Source: Polytrichum commune (taxonomy: Eukaryota; Streptophyta; Polytrichopsida; Polytrichales; Polytrichaceae). Taken from it: a stretch of DNA of 64,000 bases. The notes below the pieces were generated by a model. It searched no databases and was not told the DNA's origin. It saw nothing but the letters and a program-made list of their open reading frames with translations. The translations under genes were made by a program, and so were the position numbers. The stretch spans positions 36,957,081-37,021,080 of the forward strand of contig OX485809.1 of NCBI GenBank assembly GCA_950295325.1, written 5' to 3'. This document shows, in pieces, positions 9,522-63,305 of the stretch. Within the stretch, counting starts at the first letter, position 1. The number at the start of each line of letters is the position of its first letter.

Positions 9522-10509
9522 TTACGAACGCGCGTTCGTAAGTATGAGGTCCCATCACTAGCACAGTTGGATCGGACGGAATGTTGTGGGTTTACGAACG
9601 TGCGTTCGTAACTACCAAAGTAGACAAGAGTCGACGTTGTGACACATGTATATCAATCATGTGCAATGCGAATGGTGGTTTATTTACGAACGTGCGTTCG
9701 TAAATGTGGCATCTACGTTTTTATGTGTGTACAATTATAAATATAATGGTTGTTCATTTACGAACGTGCGTTCGTAAGTACGCCATCTATGATTTCATGG
9801 TGTATACATTCAGATGGGGGTTGTTGTGGTTTTACGAACGTGCATTCGTAAAGATGAGGTCCCATCACTAGAACTGTTGGATCGGACGGAATGTTATGGG
9901 TTTACGAACGTGCATTCGTAACTATCAAATTAGACCATAGTCGACGTTGTGACACATGTATATCAATCATTTGCAATGCGAATGGTGGTTCATTTACGAA
10001 CGTGCGTTCGTAAATGTGGCATCTACGTTTTTATGTGTATACAATTATAAATATAATGGTTGTTCATTTACGAACGTGCGTTCGTAAGTACGCCATCTAT
10101 GATTTCCTGGTGTACACTTGCAGATAGCGATTGCTGTGGTTTTACGAACGTGCGTTCGTAAACATGCTATCTATTTTGTCCCGATATACTCTTGGAAATT
10201 CGGGATAGTTGTGGTTTACAAATTTTGGTCGTTAATACAACATGCGAGTTCTGTACTGGTTTCTAGAAAAAACTCCTCGTTTATAAACCTTTATACCCAA
10301 ACTCATTCATCCTATGCTATACGAACGTGCGTTCGTATAAAAAACTTGTACGTTCTGCTCATGCAGGTCAATGGTCTGTAATTAACGAACGCACTTTCGT
10401 AAATTCCATCTGCGATCAATATGATAGCACATTGAAAGGCTTTCTAAGTTATTGACTTCCACACACAGGCACATTCACTATTGCAGTCGTATACGAACGG
10501 ACGTTCGTA
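9522..10509. repeat. Palindrome cluster 2 (12 copies) upstream of transposase copy 1
   Basis: Copies lie at about 9522, 9591, 9683, 9757, 9831, 9901, 9993, 10067, 10141, 10320, 10383 and 10492, mostly 70-90 bp apart. The usual form is TTTACGAACG-TG-CGTTCGTAAA. The copies at 9831, 9901 and 10383 each have an arm mismatch. The array ends about 110 bp before the likely start codon of the transposase. Confidence 0.92.
9547..10166. repeat. Tandem duplication (~310 bp unit) inside cluster 2
   Basis: The block starting 'aggtcccatcactag' at 9547 is repeated at 9857 with few changes, including the following spacers and four palindromes. The period is close to 310 bp, so the array has grown by duplication of multi-palindrome units. 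Confidence 0.8.
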
Positions 10510-10616
10510 TTTAGAACTTGACTGATTTGACATGCTGCGTTGAATGTCGTCCATGTTGGCTGTCATTCTTTCGTTTACGTTTGGGTCTCCTGGTGCCTCT
10601 GGTTTTTGTAGGTGGG

Positions 10617-13600
10617 ATGGCGATGCATGTGGGTGGTAGTTCTCTAGAGTTGTCAACAGACATGTCGTCCTCCGTTCGTGAATGTGAAATTTCATCCTCA
10701 TCCGCGGGTAGTTTTGACGACACAAACGTGGAGGGTGTGTCATTGCGTACATCCTCTCATGATTCTTTTCAAGTGTACGACCGTTCTCTACATTCCGGTG
10801 TGGACGACGATGACATTCCTTTGTGTGCAAGATACGGTAGGGAGAAATGGGTGGGCCTTGATGTGGTTCTACTTAATGATCTAGGTGTCCCGGTGGCAAA
10901 TGGCATATGTAGAAACTCCGATCCCCGTGAATGTGTTGATGCCAATCCCCTTGGTCTCCATGATGTTGGGGTGTGCATCTTGAATTCTTTGCTTCCGCTT
11001 GAGGTCCCTGTGACTTGGAGGTTTTCATTACGCCGATGGCCCCTTCGTCGGGTTCTCCATGAAGAAGTAAGCTTGTGGGATCATGGGCGACGGCATGAGC
11101 AAGTTCAATCAACCTTGGTTTCCAACACTCGTCCTCGCAAGGGCCTCCGTAGATATGATTCTAGCCGCGCGCCTCCTGATGATAAAGAGCGTCGACGGGA
11201 TCGCATATTAGGAGACGATTCTATCCGTCTCGTATCCACCAAGGACTGTTGTGCAAAAAGATGTTGCCAATTTTTCCCCCGCGAAAAAATTAAGTCTTTA
11301 CGTCAGGAGATGTGGCTCGCGGATTTTCGTATGAGGTCAGCAAAGAAACTCGAGGTCCATAGAAATTTGCACCTTGATGCCCATGGCCATAAGGTGGTGA
11401 CCCTCGAGAATGTGGAAGTGTGTTGTACCGCATGGTATACCATTCATGCCGTCTCCAAGGCTGACTTTTATAGGTTTAGAAAGTATTCATCATTGGGTCG
11501 TCGCTCTCGATTTCATGGCAATGCGGGCACAAAGAAACCTAGGGAGGCTACACTCCAAGCCTCCGCCACACTCTCCACGATCATAGTGCCATTGGCCGAT
11601 GCAATGCCCCACAAGACGAGGACATTGTCGACAGGGGAGAAAGTTGTTCAAATGGTGTTGCCCACGGGCACAAAATGGAAGAACATATTAACGGATATCA
11701 ACGAAGTGGGTCGCATAGCGGGTTGTGGGCCCATTTCTTTGTCCAAGTTGAGTGTCATTAAAAACCAACAATTTGCATAATACATTTTGAAGAGACCTGG
11801 TGACAAGTTCGCGAGGTGCACGACGTGTGAAAAATACAAAGGTCTTCGAGATGCCCACCCTATAGGTACTGAGTCTCATACCAGGCATCAGGCAAAATAT
11901 ATTGAACATGTCAACAACCAAGAGGCTCACCGTCAAGATTACTACAAGAACCGTGCTCTATCCATAATGAGGCCTACAGAGGTTCTAACAATTATCCATG
12001 ATAAAATGGACCACTCGAAGACCGCATGCCCTTGTTATGCTCGCAAAATAAAGGCCACGGATGGTCTTTTCAAGTTGTCCGTATCTGTAACAGGTTTGTA
12101 TGGCATCACACACCTATATTCACCCTAAATTCTATTTTATTGGGTGGATTTTCCAAATGTTCTACTTCAGTGGTCTCTTCATTTTTTTGGAGATTAACCC
12201 ATCGTTTGTTTTTTATAGGTATGATTGCCCACGGCCATGGGGACGTAAAATATGCCCATTATGGTTTGGATTTTTACCCTGGCGATGCTAACCACACGGT
12301 GGATTCATTTGCAAAACTCTTGCGCGATCTAGAGAAACCGCCGATACAGTCTTCACGTGCATTGTTTGATGGGTGTGGAACGACACCCCTTTATGAGGCA
12401 GTGCTTCCGGGTAAGGAGGTTTGTATGTCATCATTGCCGGAAGCATCCGGAGAGCTTATTTGTGCAAAACCTTTGCCTCCAACTCTCCACGTTCAACTTG
12501 ATAATTGCGCAAAGGACAACAAATGTCGATACGTATGTTGTTTTTGGTCTTTGCTTGTGGTAAAATGTATCTTCAAGGAGGTGTTTGTGTCTTTCTTGAT
12601 GGTGAGACACACACATGACGACATTGATGCGTCCTTCGGACGGTGGAGCATGAAGTTGTATGAGGAAGATTTTCCAACCATACCACTTCTTATGAAATCG
12701 TATATGGATTTGGACCATATGCCGGTGATTCCGCACATGATCGAGGAAGTACCAGATTTTAAGGCCTTCATTAAGCCATACATGTTGAAAGGAGGGGACC
12801 GTTTGGTGGGACACACCAAAGCACAACAATTCCGATTCTATATGAGGGATGATAGTCTCCCGGCCATGCAATTCAAGCTTTTGTGCACATCTCCTAATTG
12901 GGGCCCGGATGATGGTATACTAGTATGGCGTCAAGACAATGATGAGAAATGTTTGCTCCCGGATGGGGATCCAAAGCCTTGTAAACCCGACCCCATGAGG
13001 AATGGACCGGAGATCATCAAAGGCATATCCGGATTCATTGAATATTGGAAGGAGTTGTGTGAGGAGGACATCACTAGACGTGTTAGAGATACTCATGAAC
13101 CATTGATTTCATATTGGGATCGCATTCGCTCGGCACTAGTGACAGTTGATGGCGACACCCGTACGACTTTGACACAAGGGTTTTGGCCACAAAGTCGTTT
13201 GACGGTTGTCGAGTCCGACACCATGTTTTTCAGCAATGGAGACGTTCGTGAAGAGTTCGCAATGGATGAACATTACGTTGGCCCTGCCCGCAATCGACCG
13301 GCACCGTCGTTTCATGTTGGGGTTGATTGCCACGAAGGTTATATGGTGCTCTTACGAGCTGGGGATGAGGAGCATCCCAAACCAATTTGGTTGGTGAAAG
13401 CATTGTTTTCACCCAATTTTGTTCGAACTAGCCCCAACTTTCGTCAAATTAAGGTGGAATATTGCCGTCCAAACACTAAAGACCAGAACGTGCTTCGCAC
13501 TTATTTAGGTTGGGACACCAAAAAGAATTTCAAGTGGACAGTGGACTCAGCGTACAAACCGGTTTGGATAAACACGGATACTATACTTTGTGCTTGGAAG

Positions 13601-13737
13601 CCGCGCAAAGGTTCCAAAACATAATCAATGACCATCTCCAAAAACATATAGATTTTGCCAAGGACAATTTGGCACGTATTGCAGCTGCGGAAAATGACTC
13701 GGACAATGGATATGAAGCGGAAGATGGAGATGGGTAA
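10617..13737 (+). pseudogene. RNase H-like transposase gene, copy 1 (broken)
   Basis: Exon 1 (10617-12093) and exon 2 (12219-13737) are joined by a 125-bp GT-AG intron. The start is the ATG of MAMHVGGSSLELS, where similarity with copy 2 begins. The protein has a Cys/His-rich middle (CCAKRCCQFFP; CTTCEKYKGL; CPCYARKI), then in exon 2 GHGDVKYAHYGLDFYPGD, LDNCAKDNK and HTHDDIDASFG. Such D-N-C ... H-T-H-x-D-x-D motifs occur in DDE/RNase H-fold proteins of the DUF7869 kind, which are often transposon-borne. Breaks relative to copy 2: a TAA stop at 11778-11780, a TAA near 13622, a 1-base deletion shortly after it, and R for the conserved G before HTHDD. The product is probably non-functional. Confidence 0.7.
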
Positions 13738-14140
13738 ACATAACATACTAGGTGGGAGTTAATGGCGAGAGGCATGTGAGCTTAGCAAGCTTGGTTTTTA
13801 ATAGACTTAGTAGACTTGTCACATTCCATTGTGGCATATGTTTGGGATGTGTCATCCAACTTTATAAGACCCTTACTTTTGGGATGGGCACCCTAAACTC
13901 TAAAATGACATAAACAATTTGTTTTTAAAAGTCCATTGTTATTTTTCACATGGACTACACGTTTTCATTGTAATTGAGACTTTCTATTTTTAGTAATGAT
14001 AATATTCTTTGCATGCGAATTTATAAATCATCATGTTCTTGATGTTCCCAATATTCTATATGCCCACAATATTGGCATCCCAAACTATGGGCATATTTAA
14101 TTTTGACACTTTCAAAAGTCTCCGATTAACGAATATAGTG

Positions 14141-15441
14141 TTCCAACATACTTGCAATTGACCGAATTTTAATATTAGTTTCATGTATTCAAATCCACTT
14201 ATAACTTTTGTATAATACAATGAGCACAAATTTCCCAAGCATTGAGCAAAAATTATGATTTCACTTATACTAAGAAAGTGAAGAGAGTTTTCCCAAGCAT
14301 TGAAAGTTTCCTGCACCTTGGCACATTGGGCTCCCGAAACACTTGATCTTTAGGGGCACGAATTTCATAACATAAAGAAATTTGGTATGACCTTCACTAA
14401 TTTTCCACATGCACTATTAGTCCACCCTCACCAAATGGGATAATCAATGTACTTAGACCCCCATGTTGACCTGGTAATAGTGGATGGGCCCTAGCTCAAA
14501 GAGGTGGGCATCTAGCCCTGACCCTCTCTTGGCTCTCTTAGGGCGTGTTTACACCAAAGGCATGTAGCCCAATATCTTATGAAGGGCACAAGCCTTTAGT
14601 GTAAACCAAAATCCCATCACAAATTCCAACAGGTCTACCTCCAAGAGCCATCCCAACCACAATCCTGGCCAACATTATCCATACTTGCCATGTAGGATTC
14701 CATGTAAATCTTTCGTCCTCTAAAGATGGTATGGGTTGTAGTCCACAACAAATGTACCCTCATGTAAACCTAAAACAAGGGCTTGTGAAATTCTTACCCA
14801 GTGAGAATCCAAAGATTCTCAAGAGCCATGGCCTAATGGCTCTTGTGTAAATAAATCATTATATTCCGCAATTGGAGACTTTTTTATGATTTTGAGACTA
14901 CTTAAGGACATGTTTTTCAAATAAAGAACAAAGAAAACACAAATATATATTCAATGTGACTTAATCAAGCGATTCGCTTGGACAAAATTGACCAATTTGA
15001 CACAAATACATGTCATCACAATAAGAAATTGGACTAGATATTAAATCATTTGCATTTAATTTGAGACATTCGAAAGTCTCTGATTAACGAATATAGTGAT
15101 ATAAGCCCTTGCATATTCCAAGTGCGAGAGCTTGAACCCTAAAGTCATGCATGTCGTTGGAGCAGTCTCGATTCCCTCCTCTCCTCTCCTCTCGCAGCAA
15201 TCTCTCCTTCTCCCGTGAGGGTTTCAAGGAAAGGAGTTCATCAGTTTGGAGAAGTGTGTTCATAACCGTGCTTATAGGAGCCAACCATTCAAGAATTGAT
15301 TTGTGGGTGAAGTGTCTGAGATCGTGATCAAGAGCGACTGCATGAGTGACTAAGGTGTGATCAGGTGAGGAGCAAGGAGCGATCAGGTGAGACAGTGGAT
15401 CAATTTGAAGTTGGGTCAACCGAATTAACCAACGGGACTGC
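14141..15441. other. Intergenic stretch with a possible extra transposon end
   Basis: No gene was recognised. Around 14865-14905 the sequence 'ttttgagactacttaag' is the inverted partner of a similar phrase at about 8933-8950, so a longer or older version of the element may reach from about 8.9 to 14.9 kb. Confidence 0.35.
15078..15098 (+). repeat. Solo copy of the transposon 3' end
   Basis: The phrase gtctctgattaacgaata followed by tagtg repeats the 3' terminus found at 14140 and, inverted, at 58281. The preceding ~20 bp (gagacattcgaaag) also resemble those ends. It may mark the end of another, deleted copy. Confidence 0.6.
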
Positions 15442-15449
15442 ATTTGGAT

Positions 15450-15983: not shown

Positions 15984-16150
15984 GGATTCTATAAGAATGA
16001 TAAGCTTCTTATGCACATCTTCTTCTTCTATTTCCACAAGTGATCAGTTGTACTAAAGTGGACTCCTTCAAAGCTAGTGACTCGTTTCTGACCAAGTGAA
16101 GATATTGTATTCAAGGATGCTCCACTATCAAACATCATTCCACCATCAAA

Positions 16151-18904
16151 ATGTCCAACATTCAAGTACCATGTAATATGGGTGTCAAAGTCCAAGAAGA
16201 TCATAAATCTACCAATGGCAACATTAAAAACAAAAGGCAGGATGAATTGTATCCCGTAGAAGAACCATTGGCTCTAAGTGGAGATTGGCACATCAAAAGT
16301 GATGAAGTAATATTTTTTGCATATTTGATGTCATTTGACATTGAAACAAACACATCAGATCTATTTGCAAATTTTGTGTTGCTCGTGTCAAGTGAGCTCA
16401 AGGATGATGTCGCGCATTTGGAGATCCAATTGTCCCTCGAACAAGGAAAAGGATTGGCCAAGCTTTCACCATTGAAGAAAATTAACTTAACATTGCACCA
16501 AAGGCGTGATGCTATGAACTTTCAAGAGATATTGTTCAATGTATTATACAATAGTTCGTCCAAACCAATAAACAAAGCCCAAAAGAGAAGTGAAGGAGGA
16601 CTCAACATATTGCCCATCCTCAAAGAAAAGAAGCATTTATGGAGTTGGAATAACTTGTATTTGTTGTTACCAACTACTCCAACAAGTCATGGTAAAGATA
16701 TTCAAACTGATCTTGAAGGTGTGATTGATTGGGATTGTGTTCGAGCAACATCACATGCTATCGCAACACTACATGAAATAACTTCATGTGCCAAGGCGCC
16801 TGTTCATGGACATGGTGTTGTATGTTCACAAGGTAATGACCATGAGTCTTCATTATATCTTGCTCGAGGTTACCAAGTTTCAAAGCCCCATGACCTTGTA
16901 GACAAAGTTGTATTGACCCTTCATACGCAAAAAATTCATAATGTTGTCGGTGTCCTTCAAAACACAACGGCTCAAAGCTTAATGCATGGTAACAAACATG
17001 GCATGACCTATGAGGAGTACTTCGCAAACAAGTATGGAGAACTAATACATCCTAAACAACAACTCCTTCGTTTACAAACTCAAGCTCCACATGCTCGTGA
17101 CCTTCTTGCCAAAGACTATACGGTATGCCAAACCTTGACAAATGTCAAAATGAATCAAAACAGAAAGAGGGTAAGATCAAATCATGAATGCGAGGATGAC
17201 GTGGCGGTGGGAGAAAAGTATAACATAGAGATGCCACCTGAATTATGTTTTCAAATGGGTATTTCAACATCTATAGTCCGTTCAACTCATCTAGTGCCAT
17301 CTGTGATGCATCGCCTCAAATGGGCAATAATTGCGAGCCAACTACGAACATCCATTCATTTGTCTCAAAATATACATGTGTTGAGGATATTGGAGGCGCT
17401 TACAACATGCCGGTGCCAACAATCTTTCAATTTAGAGGCATTGGAGTTTCTTGGTGACTCATTCTTGAAATATGCTCTAAGTTGCATTTTATTTTTGGAA
17501 CCAACTAAGCATAATGATGGAGCTCTTAGTTATGAGCGCACTTTAAGAAGCTCGAATACTAAACTATCTTGGCTAGCAAAAAAGAAAGGTTTAGCTTCGT
17601 ACATTCAAGATTCCCAATTTGATGCAAAGCGTTGGGTTGCACCAGGCATGTTGGATAAAAACCAAATACAACACAAGAACGTCCCTGATGAAAACCAAAG
17701 CATTGTAGATATTAACCAATCAAATGTAGTTGGTATGTTTGGCAATTCCCAAAGAAAATACCAGCATTTGGAGTCAAAAACTTTAGCGGATGTTTTGGAA
17801 GCCCTAATAGGTGCATACCTTGTTGAAGGTGGTAAAAGAGAAGCCATGGAGTTCATGGTATGGGCAGGAATCATCGAATCTGTAGAGTTTGATCCTTTGC
17901 AAGTGAGTTGTGCACGCAAATGTCCATCTCTTATGGATGTGGGTTGTGATTATGGGGTGGATTTCCAATGTCTAGAGAAGATCATAGGCTACACATTTCA
18001 CAACAAAGGTTTGTTGTTGGAAGCTATAACTCATTCATCTTGTCTTGTGAACAAGATTGATGGGATCAATAGCTACCAACGCCTTGAGTTCCTAGGAGAT
18101 GCAGCCCTAGATTTTCTTGTATCACAACATTTATTTGAGGCATACCCAGGATTAACCCTTGGGTTGCTTACAAAGCTACGATCGGCGTCTGTCAACAACG
18201 AAAGATTTGCACGAATAGCAACGACGCATAAATTACATAATTTTTTACGTTGCAACAAGTCAAATGATTTGCATCGCAGTATTACAACCTTCATAAAATC
18301 CTTTGAGATGGTTGGGGTGACCCAAGAAATGGACCCTTCAAAAATTGCATTTGGGATGGATGGGCTTAAAGCCCCAAAACAACTCGCTGACTTGATAGAA
18401 AGCATTGCAGGCGCCGTCTTGGTGGATTCCGGGTTTGATACACAAGTGGTGTGGGATGTTTTGAAGCCTTTGTTGTTGCCCATTGCCACCCCAGAAACAT
18501 TAGTTGTGCACCCTGTTTCCGAATTACAAAAATTATGTACAGCCAAAAGATATCACATGAATGTCACCACCATCAACAAAACTAACATCAGCAATGGCGA
18601 CATACCAAATGAAACGGAGCATCGATATGCACAATATCGATATGAAGTTCAACTTCCAGGGGGAGTGGTTGTGGAGGGCACATCCACCAACACCTTGCCA
18701 AAGAAGATGGCTCAAATGGATGCTGCTCAAAAGGTGTTGGCAAAGTTGCAAGCTCTTGGATATAGGACAAAGCATTGTGTGAAAGAAATGCGCAAATGGG
18801 AACTTTTTCAACAAAGTATGAAAGTTGAAGGCAATAATATTTTTCCCCATGAATATCAATTAAACCACAGTGGGGCCATGGAGACCGTAAAAGCGAAATG
18901 TTGA
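16151..18904 (+). CDS. Helicase-less Dicer-like RNase III, DCL3-like
   Basis: One uninterrupted frame of 917 residues. The order is: platform region (about 55-140; PLKKINLTLHQRR is typical just before PAZ); PAZ (about 225-320; TYEEYFANKYG); RNase IIIa (EFLGDSFLKYA at about 431; LADVLEALIGAYL at about 545); RNase IIIb (RLEFLGDAALDFL at about 643; LADLIESIAGAVL at about 746); and a C-terminal dsRNA-binding domain (about 785-875; LPKKMAQMDAAQKVLAKL). The acidic residues of both catalytic sites are present. The ATPase/helicase and DUF283 regions of canonical plant DCLs are absent. RNase IIIb through VHPVSELQKLC looks most like DCL3. Plant DCL genes normally have many introns; this one has none, so it may be a retrocopy or a moss-type minimal DCL. 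It has its own TATA box and an AATAAA-like signal near 18978, and probably cuts dsRNA into siRNAs. Confidence 0.88.
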   Translation: MSNIQVPCNMGVKVQEDHKSTNGNIKNKRQDELYPVEEPLALSGDWHIKSDEVIFFAYLMSFDIETNTSDLFANFVLLVSSELKDDVAHLEIQLSLEQGKGLAKLSPLKKINLTLHQRRDAMNFQEILFNVLYNSSSKPINKAQKRSEGGLNILPILKEKKHLWSWNNLYLLLPTTPTSHGKDIQTDLEGVIDWDCVRATSHAIATLHEITSCAKAPVHGHGVVCSQGNDHESSLYLARGYQVSKPHDLVDKVVLTLHTQKIHNVVGVLQNTTAQSLMHGNKHGMTYEEYFANKYGELIHPKQQLLRLQTQAPHARDLLAKDYTVCQTLTNVKMNQNRKRVRSNHECEDDVAVGEKYNIEMPPELCFQMGISTSIVRSTHLVPSVMHRLKWAIIASQLRTSIHLSQNIHVLRILEALTTCRCQQSFNLEALEFLGDSFLKYALSCILFLEPTKHNDGALSYERTLRSSNTKLSWLAKKKGLASYIQDSQFDAKRWVAPGMLDKNQIQHKNVPDENQSIVDINQSNVVGMFGNSQRKYQHLESKTLADVLEALIGAYLVEGGKREAMEFMVWAGIIESVEFDPLQVSCARKCPSLMDVGCDYGVDFQCLEKIIGYTFHNKGLLLEAITHSSCLVNKIDGINSYQRLEFLGDAALDFLVSQHLFEAYPGLTLGLLTKLRSASVNNERFARIATTHKLHNFLRCNKSNDLHRSITTFIKSFEMVGVTQEMDPSKIAFGMDGLKAPKQLADLIESIAGAVLVDSGFDTQVVWDVLKPLLLPIATPETLVVHPVSELQKLCTAKRYHMNVTTINKTNISNGDIPNETEHRYAQYRYEVQLPGGVVVEGTSTNTLPKKMAQMDAAQKVLAKLQALGYRTKHCVKEMRKWELFQQSMKVEGNNIFPHEYQLNHSGAMETVKAKC

Positions 18905-33700: not shown

Positions 33701-35409
33701 CAGTTTGGTGTGCAGCTTGGGTAACAAAACAGTTGTTCAGCTACTTGTAGTGCATTTTTTTCTAGTTTGGATGGTGATTTGTGATAAATTTTGAAGTCGT
33801 CTGGCGTCATAAGGTTTGTTCCGTTAGGGAGGGTAATGTGTTGTATTTTGTAGATGTTATGAATTAATAATTTATGTAGGAGTTTGAGTGATAAATCTGG
33901 GTTGAGGTGTGGGAGTTCATTTGTAGCGTGTACGCCATTCTTATTCTAGTTCTGTCATGTGTAGTTGGAAATTTTCACTTGTGCTTTTGAGGTGAATGTC
34001 TTCTTCTGTTTTTAGGAGGAATAGTGTGCGTATGGTTGGTGATCTAATACAGTCATGTTGTGTTATTCTTGGGATTTTTTCTGCACCGCCATATTTAGCT
34101 AATATATGGTGTATGAGTCCTTTATATATTATACCTAGTCTTCCTTGGTTGTTAAGTGCATTTCTTAGTTGTTCGCCAATGCATCTTAGAAATGCATTTT
34201 TTAATGAAAAGGCTTCGAGGCCAAAGAGTTCGTGGGGTAGTTGGGTTATTACATTTGTTGTACATTTTGGTAGTCCGCATATTTTTTTTGGATTCCTATA
34301 ATTTTTTTGTCTAGTTTTTTGATGGTTGGGAGTGAGTATGGGACTGCGTAGAAGCTGTATGCTATGCCTGCTCTAATGACTGTGTCAACCATACTTATTT
34401 TTTGTTTGATTGTGGCAGGGCATTTGGCTAGCTGTTTACATTGGTGGTTTATTTTATTTGTGGTGATATGTGTTTGGAATTTCTATTTTAGTGAGGGTAC
34501 TAGTTGAATTCCGAAGTATGTATATGGTTCATTTTGGTGTAGAACAGGGATTGGTTGGTTTCTGTAGGATATATTGTGGTTTTGTATTTGGGTTTTGAAT
34601 TTTTCAGGGTTTACTTTGAGTTTGTTGGGACAACCTGTGATAGCACACTTTTGTACACCTAAGTCCATTCCGGCCTATTCGCAGAATTTATCTAGTTTGT
34701 TTAATTGTGTTTGTATTGATTGGAGGTTATTTGTTATTGCGGCTAGGTCGTCAGCATATGCTGCAGAGCTAATGGTTAGTTTTGATGTACCAAATGTATA
34801 CCCGTTTTTGCCCCTCTGTAGCCATCTGAGTAATGGTTCTAAAAATATTAGAAATAGGTATGGGCTTAAGGTGTCACCTTGGATGGTGCCTCTTTGGATG
34901 GGTATTGGTTTTGTTTTGTCGAAGTGTTCTCCAGTGAATATGGTGGTAGAGTTTGCGTAGATATTTCCAATTAGTGTTACTGCATCTGTTGGGTATCCAA
35001 GGTCTTTCATTATAGCTAAGAGTCTTGCGTGGTCAAGGGAGCCGAATGCATTTTTAAAGTCTATGTATAGGAGATATATGTTTTGGTTTGTGAATCTAGC
35101 ATCTTCTAAGGTTACTATGAGTAGTTGTAATTGTCTAGATGTGCTTCTTTCTGCTCTGAATCATTCTTGACTGTCATATAATATTTGATGTTTTTCGCCA
35201 TATGCTGATAGTATTAGTGTTAGTGTGCTAGTAAATAGTTTGTAGATTGTATTTGCGAGTGTTATGGGTCTGTGGTTTGTTAGTAGTGATGGGTCCCCTT
35301 TTTTGTACAAAAGTATGGTTAGACTTGTTTTCCATGATGCTGGGATTTTTTTTTGTTTGTAGCAGTGTGTAAAAAAAAGAAATAACATTTTATGAAAGCT
35401 GTCAGGCAT
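30784..35409 (-). pseudogene. LINE ORF2: reverse transcriptase, RNase H, zinc knuckle
   Basis: The pieces 35409-35161, 35010-34675, 34668-34483, 33810-33430 and 33405-30784 all lie in one frame, separated by in-frame stop codons. RT signs: WKTSLTILLYKKGD, NHRPITLANTIYK, QRGTIQGDTLSPYLF and the catalytic AYADDLAAI (about 34755). A Cys cluster follows (CYPSCTPNCPNPC). RNase H signs: YYTDGSF, FRAELMAI, IFTDCLNCLYNL and GNEQADKLAKIG, carrying the expected D-E-D-D residues. A CCHC knuckle (CSICNSEDADTWLHVLLKC) comes next. A C-terminal RNase H is known in several LINE clades, including plant L1-like and I-like elements. The clade was not fixed. Confidence 0.85.
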
Positions 35410-35758
35410 ATTTTTTAGTATTGAATTTGGAATTTTGTCTGGGCCTGGTGTTTTGTTATTGGATAGGTGTTTTAGACATAAGTCGTATGTTTCTTGGTCG
35501 AAATGCTTATGTAGTGGTGTTTGTGGGTCTCCTCTTGTATCTATTATAAATCCATCAAGGTTGTGCCATGGGTATTGTTTAACTCCACATGTACAATTAT
35601 TTGTGTGTTCTGGTTGGTAGTAGCATGTTGGTACAGTAGGTTTGTTACTTATTGATTGTTGTATATGAATTTCGTTTGCTATGTCTTTTGGATGTTGTTG
35701 TTTCTGTCTTTAATGCAGTCTAACGGTGGCGTATCTTGGTTCTTAAAAACTTTGTTAT

Positions 35759-46000: not shown

Positions 46001-46542
46001 CCAAGAGGTTGGTGATCTAAATTTACTTGAGCTTCTGCAACTTGCCCAGTGGAGGTAAATCCTCCTAAAAACTGCTTCATCAGAAAATCTTGTAAGCCAA
46101 TGCCTGCACCTTGAGCATCACAAACTGATTGAACATATATAATTTGGTTTAATATGGCCTGTTCCAGTGTCCTTGCCTCCCTGCCCTCACCTTCATCAAG
46201 TGCTTGCCTGCCCTCACCATCACCAGGTGCTTGCTTGCCCTCACCTTCACCAGGTGTTTGCCTGCCCTCACCATCATAGTATGCCTCGCTGCCCTCACCA
46301 TCACATTCTGCTAAGGCAATATCCGAGTCTTCATCAATGTCCATATCCAGTGCTGAGCGATCCTGTTCTTCATATTCAACCACCTCCAACTCTGTTCCTT
46401 CAAACTCCTTCAGAAGTAAAAGTTCAGCATCATCTTGCCTTTGCAAGTGATCTCTTGCAGTTGACATCATAACTAGCCTTCCTCCCATGTTCACACAAAT
46501 TTTGCATGGACATTGAATCCTTCGATCCCTGCGTTCAGACAT
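43012..46542 (-). pseudogene. Tnp2/CACTA-like transposase gene with one premature stop
   Basis: Three exons join in frame at GT-AG sites: 46542-45322, 45206-44102 and 43964-43012, about 1092 residues. I chose the ATG of MSERRDRRIQCPC. Features: an N-terminal CxC segment (CPCKIC); an acidic linker with four ~10-residue GEGRQ repeats; a Cys cluster (CPLCSEMCPKCKLPRKK); CPQPNCK ... CRKC; then TGDHPAQTKIGMLKASGK followed by CRRC, and DLVFDVMHITSLNLFKNYI. The last two match the GD-PA ... GK-PCR-C and D-MH-LN pattern of Transposase_21/Tnp2 proteins (CACTA superfamily). One in-frame TAG at 44271-44273 interrupts exon 2; the frame is open on both sides. No terminal inverted repeats were found, so it may be an old, recently silenced copy or a domesticated gene. 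Confidence 0.7.
46183..46290 (-). repeat. Minisatellite coding the GEGRQ repeats
   Basis: About four imperfect 30-bp units ('ccctcaccatcaccaggtgc' on the plus strand) encode the repeated Gly/Glu/Gln linker of the transposase. Confidence 0.8.
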
Positions 46543-48929
46543 TGCTTTTCCTAATTTCGGTTGTGCATTTGCCCCCACCCACCTGGTTCGCTAAGTAAGC
46601 ACTAAGAAATTGTCACTAAGAACACATGTGCGCATATGCTAACCACAGGTTCTTCAGGTGCATCCTGATAACAACAAACAACCCAAATGGTAAAGCACAT
46701 CATGACCATCGTCATCCAGATTATGTCACAAATATCCTACTCACCTACAGTGTCCTAACAGCTCAAGAACTGCAGAAAGTATTGAGCCACTATCAAGTGC
46801 TATAATCTTGTGTTGTATTGGACACAACGCAAGAATGCACCATCACATAAGCAAGAAACATATTTTGCATGTACTCTAGCACGAAGATCAAACCTTAGAG
46901 TCATAGTCCCATTTCTCGCCATAGCCGTGCTCTCGCTCTTCAGCGTCAGAGCTCATTGCTGGAGGAGACGACGAATTCCGTAATTCGTGTCATCCAGACG
47001 ACGATATTCATCTTACAAGCCAGAAAATGGAGCACAGATAGAACACTTCAGCATATCTGCATATTTTCTACGAGTCTGTTCAAGTATTCCCTACCTAACC
47101 CTGCACAGCACGGATATTATGCACAGCCAACGTCACCTTAAGCATTTCAAGTGCACCTCTGAACAATAATGAAGAGCTTTGAGGAATAATCCAATCTGAC
47201 ACCTACGTCCTCACTTTAGAACAAATTTGTCTCTCCAGTCTATATAATGTGGAGATAGGATAACATCTATCGCCAATTAGTTCCCCATGTTTCCTTATGA
47301 AATGAAAACATAAAAAAAAAGCTTCAACAGATGCCACGGTTAAGTTCCTCTACCTTACTTCTCCCATTCCGCCCTCGCTGTGCCCACACATGAACAGACA
47401 TCGAACAAATTTTTGCCTATGGGCCCCAGTTGAACCTCCTCACACCCTGATGAAGCAGCAATATGAAAAGAGCATCAGGATGATGAGAGAGAGGATGATG
47501 ATGTTTCCGCTTTTCCCCATTTCGTTTACTTATTACCCATGGAATGGAATGTATGGATGTAAAGGATGGATGTATGGATGGATGTAAAGTATGGATATAT
47601 GAATGGATGGATGGAGGGATGGAGGGATTTCGAGAGGAGGAAGAGAGCAGCGGCGTCATTTTTGTTTTCTTTCTTTCTTAATCTTCTTTCTTGGTGCTTG
47701 CTGTGGTACTTTTGGGCCACCCCCTTTCGAGGGAGCCTAAAAGTATCACACAAGCCCTTCGGTGAAGGTGGCCTGCATTTGCAGGCGCCCAAGCCGAACC
47801 CGGATGATAGGTGTATAACGTGAGTAGTTAGATTTTTAAGGGAGATTAAATATGCGTCGTAGTACCTCCGGAGGTTAGGCCTTAGTTTTTTACTAGTGTG
47901 GCTTTAAACTCCACTAACCAATTTCATATCTAGTTCTAACCTTAACCTACAACCTATTCTACGCGCAGACGCACCAGCCTTGAAACCAAGGCAATCCTAA
48001 TTTGTGAATTGGGATGGTTCTGATACACCCAACCGGGTGTGACTCATACCACCCTAACTCAACGAACGGAATAACGACAATTTGATGGACCATTCAATTC
48101 TTCCTATTTATTTATTTAGTTCTATTTAGTTTTCTAAGCGGGGGAACTTGGCCTAAGTCCCACCCTTCACACAAATTCCTTCTTAATTACTTACTTTTGT
48201 TTGCACGTCCTAACTCACTACATTAACATATTAGGCATCACCCCTTACCTCGGGTCTCTTGCCAACAAGGGTTTACGATTTATTTTGTATGTTTTGATTG
48301 TTAAATGTGTTTACACTGGATAGACCACGAAATGCAACTCAATGGGACCAGGGTGACGGGCGACCTGTAGGTTCAACCTGTTGCGCAATCTTCATAAATT
48401 GGGGCCATTACTCCCAATCTATGGGGCCAACAACATAATAGTGGATTCGCGGGTCATTAACCCCACCTTTCCACCAACAACATTCAGAGTGGTCGTGTCG
48501 GTGATTAATCCGACTTACCACACACGAAACTTGCTAATAAATGAAGCTACTACCACAAAACATACCAAGGGCCCCGAAAACAATGGAATTGGGTACTCCC
48601 TTGGCGGTCAAGTGGTCAAGCCACTTGACCTTACGAGATAGGTGAGTGGATTTAGAAATGCGTACCTTAGCCGTGCTCCCTCCAATCCTAAATGGAAGGC
48701 TTAAGGTTAGTTAATTTACCTCAATTTTCCTCGGTTGATTTGGGCTTGATGTAGGCCGAGCCGCTACCTCCTTCCTTGCTCCACTTTCCGAGCGTCGACC
48801 TTGCCTCCTTCTTTGTAATTAGTTTGGTAGTAAGCGTACCTTAGTTAACAATTAAAATATAAAGTGTTATTCTGCCCTGTAATTTAATCCTAAGCATAAT
48901 ATTTATACTTAGTGCACCAAATTATCTTT
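46543..48929. other. Stretch without a recognised gene
   Basis: The right edge of the transposase gene's promoter should lie near 46543-46950. A GGATG-type simple repeat (tatggatggatg) occupies about 47530-47630. No convincing exons or RNA genes were seen. Confidence 0.4.
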
Positions 48930-49700: not shown

Positions 49701-52700
49701 AAGCCTTCAGGGCATTGGCAGATGAGGTCTATAATGCCTCTACTCAAAACTCTACCATCCAACCTACCTCTACAAAAGAAGGAATAATTTTGTTGGTGTG
49801 TTAATAAACACACAACCTAACTAGGAGAGAGAAAGTAGAGGAGGTTCTCAAGCCTTTCTTTTAGACCATTGAGAATACATGCTAAAGGATTTTTTCCTAA
49901 CTACATTGAAGCAGGGCTTCGCCCAAAAACTAGAGAAAGAGAGAGAGCTACAAGGTGGAAGGAGGGGTTTTTAAACCCTCTCACAAAAGGGTTGGACCCC
50001 TCCTCCACCGGATCCATTTTTCAAACCCTTTCCCGAAATTTTGGCTCGGGGGTTTTCCCGGTTGAGGTTGCCACCCTCTCGCCGAGGTGGCTCCGACAAA
50101 AAACCTTTAGAAATCTTTCTAATTTTTCCGCCATCGAGTTGGCAAGGGGGCAAGTGGGCAAGTATCCCCCTTGCTTTTTTTTTTTTTTGTCTTCAAAATT
50201 CTTCACGCCGATTTTATCTTCTTACGTAAAACACCTCCAATAGTCTTGTGTGCCTCACACTAACTAATAAACTAACACTTGCTTAGCTAGCATCTACTAA
50301 CAATTGCTTAATAACTAGCATCTACTAATATTTGCTTAGCTAGTTGTTTTTACTAGCTAGCACATTTTTTCTACTTTGCTATCTTCTAGCACTACTTAGT
50401 TTCATTTTGACCTTCCTTCTTCTAGGCTAAATGCTAAATGAACTAATTTTTCCTAAATTCCCTATCAATTCTAATTTTTAATGCTAACATTCTAACTAAA
50501 AGTGATCCCGCAGAGTGGTGGACCACTCAAAGGGTTCACACTTGCTGCGAACACATGCTCGAGGCCAACGGATGGCCCGTGCCGCAATTTTGTTCTTCCG
50601 ATTTTTGTGACCTTCTATTTCCTCCGAGTCAAAGTATGCATTGAAGTGAGATCAAGGGATTGGAAAGAGATCTTTGGCTGGATTTGCAATGGCAACGGGT
50701 AAGGAAGTCAGGCGCGTTTGAGTTGGTGTTTTTTGTTGCGTTGCTAACGAGTGTGTGATGCATTTGCTGAAGTATGAATGATATGTTATCATATCTGAAT
50801 GATCGCTTACTTGTTGCATTCTGCTTAGCCATAACCTTTGCATGTCAATGCTTCTCCGATCATTCATGACCATCTTTCTAAGTTTTGTATGGATTACCAT
50901 CTTGATTCTAAGTTTTGCATTGGCTCCCTAGCAATTTGCTGAACTAGAGGTTTTGTTTTCAGTTGCGTGCCGATCGGTTAATCCATTACCATCTTGAATC
51001 TTAATCTTGAATGATCAGCGAATGCTCATTTCCGCAGGCATCCACTATCCTCGAGCCACCGCTGAGGTACGAAATATTGCACTAGTGTTCATCCACTCAT
51101 CTAACTTAGAATGCTTAATAAGGTCATCTGAGAGCTCTCAGTTTGAGTTACCACGCACGCACTCTTTGAATTCCAACATAGATGTCGATCCGCCACATAT
51201 TGTGCTAGAGGTTGGGGAATTTGTTGCAGTTTGGTGAGTGGTATTATCTTGGTCAGGTCGTGAGGAATTTCTTCCTAACGTAGTTTCAGCAACACCTGCA
51301 ATCTTTATGATTCTCTAAACTTTGAAGGACAGTAGCCGGGTGGGTGGTAACTTGTGAAGGTGTGTGCTTTTGAACTGCTTGGCTTCGAGGAGATTATACT
51401 GGCACCAGGGCGCTGAAGGTAAGCACATCGTAACTATGCTCTCTGCATCCACTTCTCGTAGGATGTGAAACACGAAATCAGTGCAAGAGGATTAGCAAAT
51501 CCAAGTCCTGCTGGTGGTCACTTCCCTCATGTGTTTTCGGAGCTTGTATAAATTAATCGTATTCATTGCCAAGTGAAGATCTTTTTTCAGTATCATGTCT
51601 TTTTGATGTTCGTATTTAACTTCCATGTTTGCTCTGTTTGTTTGGACTGGGTTATTAGGGTTTGCTTGTGCTAGGTGTTAGATTGGAAGTTTGCGATTGG
51701 GAAGTGAAGGTTGATGCGATCAATTGGATTAGGAGATGATTGAGGCTGAATTGTCCAAAGCTTGAAATCCAAGTGGTTTCAGAATCATAATGCCCCAAAT
51801 TACCCCTTCCCTTTCGCTTAAATTCGTTTTATTCCGGGTTGTGTTCGTTCTGTCTTTGGTGGTGAGCTATGATGATCCACACACTAGTAAAATGCCAGTT
51901 CTGCTTCTGAAAACCGTGAATGAGAACTGGTCAAGTCTGAGCTCTATCTGTCACTACTATCGAGAATGAGGTGTGTTATGTTGGCGGTGATGACAAGAAA
52001 ATTTCGTCAAGCTCAACAGACTTGATATGGGGATAACGTCTGTGATGATAAACAGGCTTGTTTCTCAAACATTCGCAGTGGCCGCCTAAAGCTTTCGCCC
52101 TGCCGGGCTTGAGAGCTAATGCAGCTTCCAAACCTTCCTTGGATATCTGCGACGTTGGCAGTGAGAAATGATAGGATGTGTATGCGAGGCTAGGATTACA
52201 CAAGTATCCGCGCTTCTGAGGGAAAACCCTGTGAAGCACAGAAATACATAATGGTTGAATTTCTTGACATGAGCCTCGTAGACATTGTCATTCAGTTGTG
52301 TTTGTATTAAACGTTCGATATTGGAGTAAATGTGACTCTTGTTCATTTGAGACTTGGAGCGGGAGCGGGATAACAACGGAGCGTGTTCTGTTTCGCCCTA
52401 CGCTTCGTTCTGGTGAATGTTTTGGAGCGGAAGCGGGAGCTGCACTGGAGGTTGTTATTCGGGAGCGGTGACTTTGTTCATTGGATAAGGTAAGTTTGAT
52501 ATCATTTGATATGGTGGTGGAATACTGGAGTTCTAGATTGGAGAAGTACTTGGTTGAATTGGATGTGCGGTTGTGTTGTTTTTTCGGAAGATTAGGAAGA
52601 ATTCGGAAGAATTTCAGGAGTGGACGGAAGAGTACCTGCGTAGGAGAATTTCGGGACTGGACGGAGTGTTGCTGTGGAGTTTGTTGTTTTCTTGCCGCGG

Positions 52701-57861: not shown

Positions 57862-57890
57862 CCGTATTTCCGTATTTCCGTATTTCCGTC
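57862..57890. repeat. Three tandem TCCGTATT units near the element end
   Basis: Head-to-tail copies of 'tccgtattt' (period 9) lie 20-45 bp from the right terminus of the TCCGGA-rich element. Confidence 0.75.
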
Positions 57891-58683
57891 AAATTTGGAC
57901 TCCCACATTGGTTGACCAAGATGATGGTGAAACCCAGGAAACTGTATTGGAGCCAGTACCTGACCTTGATGACAGTGGCCTCACAAACAATATGGCTCCA
58001 CCTGCTGCTTGCAAAGGTTTGTCTACAGGCGTCTATGTCAAAGAGACATCCATGATTCTAGAGTTGTTTTTATTTTTGTGGTTTGAGTTTTTGGACTCAT
58101 TAGTGCTACTGCATCTGTATTGCAGTCCTGCTTGACTGACGTTTTTTCATTATTGTGCCAGGGTTTCGCATTGACAAAGTAGGCCTCAGTCCGAATGGAA
58201 CGTGTGATTTTGTTTCTGGCCCAGCCATTGAGGTATGCAATTCTCCACCAGTTACATGAGATGAGTTACAAGCCAACTATCACTATATTCGTTAATCGGA
58301 GACTTTTGAAAGTCTCAAAATAAAATATGCCCATAGTTTGGGATGCCAATATTGTGGGCATATGGAATGTTGGGAACATCAAGAACATGACAATTTAAAA
58401 ATTCGCATGTAAAGAATATTCCTAATACTAAAAATAGAAAATTGCAATTATAATGAAAACGTGAACTCCATGTGGAAAATAACAAGCGAATCTAAAAAAC
58501 AAATGGTTTATGCCATTATAGAGTTTGGGGTGCGCATCCCATAAGTAAGGTTCTTATGGTTTTGGATGGCACATCCCAAACGTATACCACAATTGAGTGT
58601 GACAAGTCTACTAAGTCTATTAAAAACCAAGACTACTAAGCACTAATGTTTTTTCCCGCCGTTAACTTTCACCTATGTTATGT

Positions 58684-61600
58684 TTATCCATCTCCATCTT
58701 CCGCTTCATATCCATTCTCGGCGTCATTTTCCGCAGCTGCAATACGTGCCAAGTTGTCTTTGGCAAAATCTATATGTTTTTGGGGGATGGTCATTGCTTC
58801 TGTGTTGGAACCTTTGCGCGGCTTCCAAGCACAAAGTATAGTATCCGTGTTTATCCAAACCGGTGTGTACGCTGAGTCCACTGTCCACTTAAAATTCTTT
58901 TTGGTGTCCCAACCTAAATAAGTGCGGAGCACGTTGTGGTCTTTAGTGCTTGGACAACAATATTCCACCTCAATTTGACGAAAGTTGGGGCTAGTTCGAA
59001 CAAAATTGGGTGAAGACAATGCTTTTACCAACCAAATTGGCTTGGGATGCTCCTCATCCCCTGCTCGTACGAGGACCAAATACCCTTCATGGCAATCAAC
59101 ACCTACACGAAACGACGGTGCCGGTCGATTACGGGCAGGGCCAACGTAATGCTCGTCCATTGCGAACTCTTCACGAACGTCTCCATTGCTGAAAAACATA
59201 GTATCGGACTCGACAACCGTCAAACGACTTTGTGGCCAAAATCCTTATGTCAAAGTCGTACGGGTGTCGCCACCAAGTGTCATCAAGGCTGAGCGAATGC
59301 GATCCCAATACGCGATCAACGGTTCATGGGTATCTCTAACACGTCTTGTGATGTCCTCCTCGCACAACTCTTTCCAATATTCAATGAATCCGGATATGCC
59401 TTTGATGATTTCCGGCCCATTCCTCATGGGTTCGGGTTTGCAAGGCTTTGGTTCCCCATCCGGGACCAAACATTTCCCATCATTGTCTTGACGCCATACG
59501 AGTATACCATCATCCGGGCCCCAATTAAGAGATGTGCACAAAAGCTTGAATTGCATGGCCGGGAGACCATCGTCCCTCATATAAAATCGGAATTGCTGTG
59601 CTTTGGTATGCCCCACCAAACGGTCCCCTCCCTTCAACATGTATGGCTTGATGAAGGCCTTGAAATCTGGTACTTCCTCAATCAAGTGCGGAATTACTGG
59701 CATATGGTCCAAATCCATATACGATTTCATAAAAAGAGGTATGGTTGGAAAATCTTCTTCATGCAACTTCATGCTCCACCGTCCGAATGATGCATCAATG
59801 TCGTCGTGTGTATGTCCCACCATCAAGAAAGACACAAACACCTCCTTGAAGATTCCTTTCGCCACGAGCAATGACCAAAAACAAAATACATATCGACATT
59901 TGTTGTCCTTCGTACAATTATCAAGTTGAACGTGGAGAGTTGGAGGCAATGGTTTTGCACAAATGGGCTCTCCGGGTGGTTTTGGCAATGACGACATACA
60001 AACCTCCTTCCCCGCAAGCACTGCCTCATAAAGGGATGTGGTTCCACAACCATCAAAAAGTGCACGGGAAGAATGTACCGGTGGCTTCTCAAGATCGCGC
60101 AACAGTTTTGCAAATGAACCCACCGTGTGGTTAGCATCCCCAGGGTAAAAATCCAAACCATAATGGGCATACTTTACGTCCCCATGGCCGTGGGCAATCA
60201 TACCTGGAAAAAACAAACGATGCGTGACCAAAATAATCAAATAACCACTAAACGGATGTATGGAGTTGGACATTTGCCAAACACACCCAAGAAAATTGGA
60301 TAGACTTTAAACACGTAGTTGTGATTTCATACAAACCTGTGACAGCTACGGGCAACTTGAAGAGACCATCCGTGGCCTTTATTTTGCGTGCATAACAAGG
60401 GCATGCGGTTTTGGCGTGGTCCATTTTATCATGGATGACTGTTAGAACCTCTGTGGGCCTCATTATGGATAGAGCACGATTCTTATAGTAATCTTGATGG
60501 TGTGCCTCTTGATTGTTGACATGTTCAATATATTTTTTCTGGTGTCTGGAATGAGATTCAGTGCCTATGGGGTGGGCGTCTCGAAGACCTTTGTATTTTT
60601 CACACGTCGTACATCTAGCGAACTTGTCCCCGGGTCTTTTCAGAATGTATTCCGCAAACTGCTGGTTTTTAATCACACTCAACTTGGACAAAGAAATGGG
60701 CCCACATCCCGCTATGCAACCCACTTCATTGATGTCCGTTAAGATGTTCTTCCATTTTGTGCCCGTGGGCAACACCATTTGAACAACCTTCTCCCCTGAC
60801 GACAATGTCCTCGTCTTGTGGGGCATTGCATCGGCCAATGGCACTATGATGGTGGATAGTGTCGCGGACGCTTGCAGTGTAGCCTCCCTAGGTTTCTTTG
60901 TGCCCGAGTTGCCATGAAATCGAGAGCGGCGATCCAACGATGAATACTTTCGAAACCTATAAAAGTCAGCCTTGGAGACGGCATGGATGGTATACCACGC
61001 TGTACAACACACATCAACATTCTCAAGTGTCACCACCTTATGCCCATGGATATCAAGGTGCAAATTTCTATGGACCTCGAGTTTCTTAGCCGACCTCATA
61101 CGAAAATCCGCAATCCACATCTCTTGACGCAGAGATCTAATTTTCTCCCGCGGGAAAAATTGGCAACATTTCCTCGCACAACAATCTTTGCCGGACACTA
61201 GACGGATAGATTCGTCCCCCAAAAGCCGATCCCGTCGACGCTCCTTATCTCCGCGAGGCACACGGTTTGAATCATATCTACAGAGGCCTTTGCGAGGACG
61301 TGTTGTGGCCAACAAAGCTAATTGTGTTTGCTTATGCCGCCGCTCATGATCCCACAAACTCACTTCCTCATGTAGAACTTGACGAAGCGGCCATCGACGC
61401 AAGGAAAATCTCCATGTCACCGGAACCTCTACCGGAAGCAAAGAGTTCAAGATGCACACGCCAACATCATCGAGACCTAGGGCGTTGGCATCGACACAAT
61501 CACGGGGATTGGAGTTTCTACATATGCCATCTGCCACCGGGACACCAACCTCGTTGAGTAGAACGACATCAAGGCCAACCCATTGCTCCCTCCCGAAACC

Positions 61601-61813
61601 GGCACACAACGGAATGTCATCGTGGTCATCTCCGGAATGCAGAGATTGTTCGTGGACTTCCAAAGATTCATGGGAGGATGTATCCACAAACACCCCCCTC
61701 ACGTTTGGCACACCATTACTATCTGCCGACGGGGAAGACAGTTCACATTCAGCATCGGATGACGATGCATACGTCGACAACTCCAATGAACTATCACCCA
61801 CATGCAACGCCAT
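58684..61813 (-). pseudogene. RNase H-like transposase gene, copy 2 (one premature stop)
   Basis: Exon 1 (61813-60337, 1477 nt, the same length as in copy 1) and exon 2 (60203-58684, 1520 nt) are joined by a 133-bp intron, giving a 998-residue frame apart from one stop. Motifs are as in copy 1, with the conserved Gly kept: LDNCTKDNKCRYVF and GHTHDDIDASFGRW. The C-terminus (AAAENDAENGYEAEDGDG) is acidic and intact. The stop is a TAA at 59245-59247 where copy 1 has CAA, consistent with a single C-to-T change. The Cys/His clusters in exon 1 may bind zinc. By analogy with DUF7869-type proteins it should act on element DNA in the nucleus; catalysis is not shown. Confidence 0.72.
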
Positions 61814-62135
61814 ACAGCCTAGACCAACCACCAGGAAATGATCAACCCAACCACCACCGCAATGCATACAAGAGAGGATAGAATATATGTGGAGATAAAT
61901 GGTCCAAAATTGACAAACAAATTTTGGTGCACCATTGGAGAACCTCACGCACAAAGACGAACGCGCGTCCCAAAAAAACGTTTTAAGCATACGTCTAGAT
62001 TGTTCACTAATGTAAACAATACATGGACAAAGAGGAGAACACTCGTTAGTCGTCCAGGAGGGCCCTGCTGTTCGGACCAGCGCCTATCCCCATACAACCG
62101 ACGACGAAATCAGAAATCCGAGAACGCCACATGCA

Positions 62136-63305
62136 TTTACGAACGCGCGTTCGTGACCTCAGTAACTTCTCCATGTACATCCGGCGGCCTTCGAGATCCC
62201 TCAAATGAGAGCACCCTGAGGAATATCGGTTTTGTAGGTCAAAGTACCATATTGACTTAGGAACCTGCGCGATATACTATCACAAGAGAACACTTGTCCA
62301 TACGCACAAAATTAGCAAATCTGCAGATGATGCCTGAATCAACTCCAACAATATTTTGAACACTGAGCACCTCCATATTGTGAATTTGAATATGTTGATT
62401 TTTGCGTACCTACCCATTTACGAACGGACGTTCGTAAATGGGTGCGACCCCGTGTTCACATCCTTCACGGACGAGCGATGAGCATATTTTTCTTGCTATT
62501 CTGTGTTTTCGTAAATTATTGCCATACTGATGTGCATGAATGAAGATGTGTTGCTGGATGCGTAGACAATAATGACATGTGTTTACGAACGAACGTTCGT
62601 AAATTCCCGACCATCAGGTACCAATAGATACGGGTCAAATAAGTATGTATGATCCTCGAAGGCATATTTACGAACGCACGTTCGTAAATGACTGTCATGT
62701 ATTAAGTGCATGTGACTAACCATATGAGTACCTCAATCCATAACATGCTCTCATGTGGAATTTACGAACGCACGTTCGTAAATAAATGCCATGGATGATG
62801 TGCATGTGACTATCCATGAGTAGCTCAATCCAAAACATGATCTCCTGTGGGATTTACGAACGCACGTTCGTAAAATTACCGACCATCAGGTACCAATAGA
62901 TACGGGTCAAATATGTATGTATGATCCTCGAAGGCATATTTACGAACGCATGTTCGTAAATAATTGCCATGGATTATGTGCATGTGACTATCCATGAGTA
63001 GCTCAATCCAAAGCATGCTCTCAGGTGGGATTTACGAACGCACGTTCGTAAATTACCGACCATTAGGTACCAATAGATAAGGGTCAAATATGTCTGCATG
63101 GTCCTCGAAGGCATATTTACGAACGCACGTTCGTAAATAACTGAGATGGATTACGTGCATGTGACTATCCATATGAGTAGCTCAATCCAGAACATGCTCT
63201 CATGTGGAATTTACGAACGCGCGTTCGTAAATCCTTGCCATGTCCAGGTCCGAATCGTTTGTCTAAACCTGAAGCTCTTCATCTTTACGAACGTGCGTTC
63301 GTAAA
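62136..63305. repeat. Palindrome cluster 3 (11 copies) upstream of transposase copy 2
   Basis: Copies lie at about 62138, 62413, 62582, 62667, 62761, 62853, 62939, 63031, 63116, 63210 and 63284. Most have centre CA and spacing near 90 bp. The copies at 62138 and 62939 are imperfect. The copy at 62413-62442 is extended to a 30-bp palindrome (arms CCCATTTACGAACG). Longer units containing 'ctcaatccaaaacatg' and 'caggtaccaatagata' recur with a period near 177 bp. Confidence 0.92.

Follow-up and report, generated by a model that had tools for sequence, protein, structure and literature searches.

Family-specific palindromes as candidate target sites of an element-encoded protein in DUF7869 transposons of Polytrichum commune

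We analyzed a stretch of 64,000 nucleotides of the Polytrichum commune genome (C7:36957081-37021080 of 408 Mb), here called the window, which holds three arrays of a palindrome with a free 2-bp center. These arrays belong to copies of one DNA transposon of about 16 kb, which has two divergent genes, one for a transposase of the DUF7869 family (gene 1) and one for a protein with a DGQH motif (gene 2). Related transposons in the same genome have palindromes of the same geometry and of entirely different sequence. The reading that we favor, with moderate confidence, is that the palindromes are the target sites of a dimeric DNA-binding protein, which is encoded by the element and controls the element's own genes.

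Results

The initial annotation of the window had reported 36 palindromes in three arrays. A pattern scan for TTTACGAACG-NN-CGTTCGTAAA at ≤3 mismatches recovered 36, of which 19 were exact, at coordinates within 1-2 bases of those reported, where none were expected (mean 0 and maximum 0 in 100 dinucleotide shuffles). The arrays lie at 2107-5579 (n = 13), 9521-10511 (n = 12), and 62136-63305 (n = 11). The window has few other half-sites, all without a partner, and the palindrome was not found between 14201 and 58200 at ≤4 mismatches. The claim that these are the only places of occurrence holds for the window but not for the genome, where we counted 2909 exact copies (reversed control pattern, 0). 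The center, described as free, is indeed unconstrained, since all 16 dinucleotides are present when five loci are pooled, with TG and CA being the commonest.

The palindromes are clustered and linked to genes. The ~100 genome matches listed all come from the initial 2.6 Mb of C1; most of them form five clusters, a few are singletons, and each of these clusters consists, by eye among the matches listed, of two arrays separated by about 3.0-3.4 kb. For 30 of the 40 best array matches, a transposase from a list of the best 72 of 1588 candidates was found at a distance of 499-1117 bp, with the side and orientation expected. The other 10 arrays may be explained by the incompleteness of this list or by decayed copies. 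Arrays had initially been tied either to a transposon or to a ParB-like gene. The linkage stands, but the comparison of copies revealed that these are not separate partners: both belong to one transposon, as its two divergent genes.

The complete copy C5a (C5:44632885-44648988, 16.1 kb) has the inverted ends AACACTATATTCG/CGAATATAGTGTT. In 10 of 10 sampled copies the CACTA of the left end has AA in front of it, and the seven right ends seen all continue from TAGTG into TT, the far end of the three other sampled copies lying outside the stretch fetched. Given this consistency, the actual terminus may be AACACTA. Just beyond AA/TT, a 4-bp target duplication was identified by eye in 8 of the 10 copies with both ends, and none in the other two; this set includes C5a, seven of the ten sampled copies, the sister element G40 (see below), and a deletion derivative. 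Copies C5a and C4a are 99.6-99.7% identical, which suggests that the family probably moved recently. The deletion derivative (C1:639072-648558, L031/L032) is 9.5 kb long and has both ends, the 4-bp duplication, and 46 sites, but no gene-size frames; hence, the sites are retained in cis. Its palindromes are partly in 160-bp tandem units, and their centers are mostly GG or AG.

We then turn to the relatives of this element. Five other DUF7869 loci were picked as distinct subfamilies from the best 150 of 1492 candidates. None of the five contains the window palindrome, and each of them has a different recurrent palindrome, again with a 2-bp free center. The G40 family (L040/L044) has GTTTGGGTCG-NN-CGACCCAAAC, with 42 sites, and the G39 family (L039/L045, with L054) has CCCACGGGTG-NN-CACCCGTGGG, with 23 sites. 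The G41 type has GGGTGAGGCA-NN-TGCCTCACCC, with many mismatched sites: 26 in G41, 29 in L042, and 38 in L043, where a first scan had revealed no perfect palindromes and the sites emerged once mismatches were allowed. Searches across families gave zero matches at ≤4/20 mismatches in nine sequences, including 44 kb of other window DNA. There is a lone G39-type match in L037, which is probably a matter of chance. Exact genome-wide counts, which cover the window, G40, and G39 types, gave 1095 copies for G40 and 819 for G39 (controls, 0). Two short DUF7869 stretches, L049 and L050, have one G39-type site each. Within the family of the window, six further gene-2 loci (L033-L038), 61-72% identical, all have the window-type palindrome.

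G40 is a complete sister element of 16.6 kb, with the ends and gene order of C5a and a 4-bp duplication. Its identity to the window-type element is 58-66% in the transposase, 34-36% in exons 1-2 of gene 2, and 43% in the NIF phosphatase. Its palindromes are at comparable places, e.g., between exons 1 and 2 of gene 2, and the element ends are common to families A/B and G40 despite the different palindromes. Upstream of the G40 transposase, at L040 3643-4909 (C5:946143-947409), we observed 17 near-regular units of 78 bp with one palindrome each.

A related gene 2 was found in all four families. The DGQH motif, or its variant NGQH, is present in all three sister families and the NIF phosphatase was seen in two of them. 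The gene 2 of the G39 type (NGQH; NIF, E = 1.6e-8) and that of the G41 type, where DGQH was seen in both G41 and L048, were recognized when profiles were compared in pairs (E = 3.7e-7, 1e-13, and 2e-6), and no NIF exon was found in the 13 kb of G41. At the G39 locus, tblastn searches for gene 2 did not find it. Gene 2 was read, together with the G39 palindrome, from C1:34010280 onward (L054), ~17 kb from a G39-type transposase at C1:33993299-33993721. From the transposase side, 13.2 kb are common to two other G39 copies at 99.7% identity, from which we infer a single large G39 element.

In C5a, 28 of the 30 sites are non-coding, while 49% of the element is coding (binomial P = 6e-7, which is only a rough value because sites in an array are not independent). 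They are located upstream of both genes and within all three introns predicted for gene 2, with two sites in each of the short introns (two in number, about 114-140 bp). The sites closest to the element ends are at 3857 bp and 2425 bp from them, and they are hence not classical subterminal repeats.

The window contains two copies of the element. Copy 1 (1998-14142) has lost its left part, and with it the left part of gene 2; it includes the rest of gene 2 on the minus strand, the transposase on the plus strand, and palindromes. Compared with C1b (C1:49.68 Mb), a more complete copy, its homology starts at 1998 and stops at the terminal repeat, ...GATTAACGAATATAGTGTT, at 14124-14142 (plus strand). 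In this copy, three palindromes at 2107-2282 are just past the donor site of gene-2 exon 2, in a putative intron. Two others, at 3661-3682 and 3715-3736, are in the putative 114-bp intron at 3628-3741 (minus strand), where C5a has a pair at the same place, and the second of them abuts the splice donor GTAAG. Eight palindromes at 5069-5579 lie upstream of gene 2, in what would be a 5'-untranslated-region intron and the promoter, and twelve at 9521-10511 lie upstream of the transposase, in an array that holds a 310-bp direct duplication (9522-10166). Copy 2 (58281-64000, minus strand) is 97-99% identical to C5a. Eleven palindromes at 62136-63305 lie upstream of its transposase, partly in tandem units of 94/177 bp (62666-63242), and its gene 2 is outside the window, from C7:37021081 onward (L007). 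Its terminal repeat, CACTATATTCGTTAATC at 58281-58297 (plus strand), is preceded by AT instead of the AA of the other copies. A third terminal sequence, CACTATATTCGTTAATC at 15082-15098 (minus strand), is found 958 bp past the CACTA end of copy 1 and also lacks the adjoining AA; it is perhaps the end of a non-autonomous relative.

The arms of the palindromes are conserved above their surroundings, as the initial annotation had proposed when it noted that arms are kept and spacers differ. With sites defined in the window copy, 14 of 20 reach an identity of 18/20 or more when the window element is compared with C5a (14/18 of those that are gap-free), against 144 of 2122 gap-free control windows. 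The comparison with the sister copy C1b gives 14 of 24 (14/20 gap-free) against 167 of 2081 controls. The intergenic DNA of the window element and C5a is 62-63% identical. We also counted CpG decay in four copies and found it in 10/376 cells of the palindromes, 18/472 of other non-coding DNA, and 35/1288 of coding DNA. Outside the palindromes this is ~4 times the rate of non-CpG transitions (58/6940 and 67/9508), a ratio that methylated DNA would be expected to show; the non-CpG rate within palindromes is 5/88.

The product of gene 1 matches DUF7869 (PF25273, E = 4.1e-40), the only family over the cut-off in our profile scans. It keeps the acidic motifs DxMD, xDN, and HTH(D/E)D(I/V)D, in the style of DDD/E transposases, which may have a catalytic role. 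Of the best 72 of 1588 candidate matches to its first exon, 41 cover this exon in full without a stop. In copy 1 the transposase has a first open frame at 10515-11780 (plus strand), interrupted relative to its relatives, and a second one at 12005-13624 (plus strand) with the DUF7869 match (E = 3.3e-38). In copy 2 the first-exon frame, of 611 amino acids, is at 60248-62083 (minus strand) and the second-exon frame, which is shorter than in C5a, is at 59245-60306 (minus strand; DUF7869, E = 3.7e-40). Comparisons of the transposase with PDB sequences and phage proteins matched nothing useful, and we found no paper on DUF7869 in the open-licence literature.

Gene 2 is antiparallel to gene 1. It has an exon 1 with the motif WIIDGQHSLEA, an exon 2, an exon 3, and an exon encoding a NIF phosphatase domain (PF03031, E = 2.9e-16 in complete copies); the predicted joins between exons are based on frames and GT/AG signals. 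In copy 1, exon 1 is an open frame at 3742-5037 (minus strand) and exon 2 an open frame with phase-0 junctions and no known domain at 2302-3627 (minus strand). Exon 3 has a weak match to HAUS-augmin3 (E = 8e-4), under its cut-off. The part corresponding to exon 1 had been named ParB-like, a label that we could not sustain. It rests on the DGQH motif, suspected to be of ParB/Srx type, and profiles gave no support for it: searches for a ParB/DGQHR family at E up to 10, in Pfam, NCBIfam, PHROGs, PADLOC, PDB sequences, and contig and phage scans, produced sub-threshold unrelated matches or no matches at all. Exons 1-2 match no Pfam family over the cut-off, and gene 2 has no meaningful match among PDB sequences. 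A degenerate stretch at the end of exon 2, suspected to be a methyltransferase motif, gave no match and was dropped.

Other features of the window are distinct from these elements. About 2 kb from copy 1, a frame of 934 amino acids (16100-18904, plus strand) is Dicer-like, with two stretches of RNase III (Ribonuclease_3, E = 1.2e-40) in addition to a PAZ domain. An element of the long interspersed nuclear element type (30784-38206, minus strand) has an endonuclease frame with a stretch, GDIKTNPGP, which resembles a 2A peptide, and a second frame with RNase H and a match to PCIF1_WW (E = 1.5e-11), which we think is unusual in this context. The region at 43012-46590 (minus strand) has weak matches, below the cut-offs, to Transposase_21 (E = 1.2e-4) and DUF6729 (E = 0.0027). 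The former is in an open reading frame at 44271-45224, separate from the palindrome elements, and the region is perhaps a distinct decayed CACTA-type element without these palindromes. Finally, two C/D-box small nucleolar RNAs, SNORD14 and snoU36a, are in tandem at 52037-52276 (plus strand).

Discussion

The distribution of the palindromes may have a functional explanation. The transposon would encode a dimeric protein that recognizes a specific sequence, and this protein would bind the sites upstream of both genes and in the introns of gene 2, and act on the element's own transcription. Its most likely role would be to keep the genes active against host silencing, like VANC does for VANDAL elements. 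When the specificity of the binder shifted in one family, the sites would shift as well, while the geometry, two inverted half-sites of ~10 bp around a 2-bp free center, would remain constant. Sites that are uniform within an element and different in its sister, with geometry, placement, and partner gene all kept, look like the trace of co-evolution with a trans-acting dimeric binder, and chance, satellite drift, or a host factor would be poor explanations for them. The initial annotation had already suggested, from the pattern, sites of a dimeric protein rather than a satellite. This suggestion gains from the conserved arms, the free center, the scattered intron sites, and the full replacement of the palindrome in sister families. 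In outline, a self-encoded dimeric regulator with its operators is a likely mechanism.

Which of the two proteins would be the binder? We regard gene 2, with its DGQH domain, helical exon 3, and NIF-type phosphatase, as more probable than the transposase. Between two families with different palindromes, identity is lower in exons 1-2 of gene 2 (34-36%) than in the transposase (58-66%), and this faster divergence weakly favors gene 2. A more elaborate version, which we find improbable, is a eukaryotic transposon system resembling ParB-parS: the DGQH dimer would load on the palindromes of its family, both upstream of the genes and inside them, and spread over the element, the fused NIF phosphatase would act on RNA polymerase II or chromatin to sustain transcription, and families would switch palindromes while keeping the geometry.

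Several observations weigh against target sites for a protein made by gene 2. Profiles of DNA-binding proteins, ParB included, do not match the DGQH domain, and AlphaFold models of two gene-2 segments, made from single window sequences, have a pLDDT (predicted local distance difference test) of 35.0 and 35.6. The short DUF7869 stretches L047 and L048 (2.5-3.2 kb) lack all four palindromes; L047 covers only ~0.7 kb upstream of its frame, and L048 seems to have lost the first half of each gene together with the region between them. Two of the 30 sites of C5a are inside a coding exon (exon 3 of gene 2). The CpG-decay test, which is small, shows no clear protection of the palindromes from methylation and lends no support to local germ-line demethylation. 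Finally, the transposase, which the four families also have in common, may itself bind the sites.

This last possibility is the strongest of the alternatives, even if we find it doubtful: the N-terminal part of the DUF7869 transposase would bind the palindromes as internal enhancer or synapsis sites, and gene 2 would do something else. Transposase and palindromes occur together in all four families examined, one site of G40 is just 258 bp from an end, and CACTA elements have repeated motifs bound by an element protein (PMC2613891). Yet, even the closest sites of C5a are at 3.9 kb and 2.4 kb from its ends, and many sites are in the putative introns of gene 2, which would be odd for end recognition. 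Furthermore, families A/B and G40 have common ends and different palindromes.

We consider it quite improbable that the palindromes act as RNA hairpins controlling splicing or translation from introns and leaders. Some sites are within putative introns, one of them directly at a splice donor, the perfect 10-bp arms are able to fold, and a symmetric change of arms between families would also suit a stem. However, the arrays extend ~1 kb upstream of the transposase frame, the arms are conserved as sequence and not just in their pairing, the constant 2-bp center would make a very tight RNA loop, and no Rfam family reaches its cut-off at the palindromes. It is very unlikely that they are functionless repeats spread passively by tandem duplication and gene conversion. 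Some arrays are indeed tandem, such as those with the 310-bp duplication and the 94/177-bp units, but arms are conserved amid spacers that are 62-63% identical, isolated intron sites away from the arrays have the same palindrome, and the sites of the sister element all have another one. Many transposons carry sites for host transcription factors, but a hijacked host transcription factor or insulator protein is very improbable here, as 44 kb of other window DNA contain none of the four at ≤4 mismatches, and a separate host factor would be needed for each of the four sequences, which are unrelated but identical in geometry.

If target sites of a self-encoded regulator are what these palindromes are, then the principle of VANC, a regulator whose target is multiplied in the non-coding DNA of its own element, would have had a second origin in an unrelated transposon. 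Four families with four dyads and related partner genes in one genome would be a natural panel to study how DNA-binding specificity changes, and they would supply orthogonal protein-site pairs. It could also give a setting to DUF7869.

How does this element compare with known systems? The initial annotation knew of no described plant element of this kind. This is right in part. We did not find the element in the literature, as judged from titles and abstract openings of open-licence papers, but VANDAL/VANC and CACTA/TnpA share the principle, with other proteins and motifs. Bacterial ParB-parS systems have a protein encoded beside multiple palindromic sites, and here a protein with a motif suspected to be of ParB/Srx type is also beside such sites; the differences are that the element is a transposon of eukaryotic type and that sequence profiles do not support ParB.

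Chapaev elements (CMC) have target duplications of 3-4 bp and termini CAC...GTG, with A/T adjoining the duplication in Chapaev3 (PMC4079192), and the 4-bp duplication found here falls within that range. The C(2)C and H(3-4)H motifs between the second D and the last E, given as a CMC hallmark (PMC12730594), were not seen by eye in the DUF7869 alignment, where the last acidic residue was assumed. Palindromes of this kind are not mentioned in the available parts of these descriptions of Chapaev (PMC4079192, PMC12730594). CACTA elements have ends that begin with CACTA, subterminal motifs, a 3-bp duplication, and a tnp2 transposase; in the soybean Tgmt* elements the motifs differ between families, and a parallel diversity of binders is thought to exist (PMC2613891). 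Our element resembles CACTA/EnSpm in its termini, 5'-CACTA...TAGTG-3'. It differs in having a 4-bp instead of a 3-bp duplication, in sites that are mostly gene-proximal or intronic where those described for CACTA are subterminal, and in gene 1, which is DUF7869 (PF25273) and has no match to tnp2 (Transposase_21) over the cut-off.

VANDALs are transposons of the Mutator type. In VANDAL21 of Arabidopsis, a motif is clustered, often in tandem, upstream of VANA as well as within VANB and VANC introns; the motif varies among related families, and VANC is an element-encoded anti-silencing protein (PMC5735166). Of the systems compared, this one is the nearest in its working: in both cases element-specific clusters are in non-coding DNA upstream of the transposase and in introns (here putative) of an accessory gene, and the motif differs between related families that have a related accessory protein. 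The VANC21 motif, as described there, is a 9-base asymmetric sequence, YAGTATTAY, arrayed in one orientation (PMC5735166), whereas the palindrome found here is a dyad of 20-24 bp with a 2-bp free center. Further differences are the DUF7869 transposase, the CACTA-like ends, the 4-bp duplication, and the NIF phosphatase exon of gene 2. Anti-silencing is demonstrated for VANC and would apply to our element by analogy. Hence, on the features tested, the element appears to work like the VANC and TnpA systems while belonging to none of the families compared.

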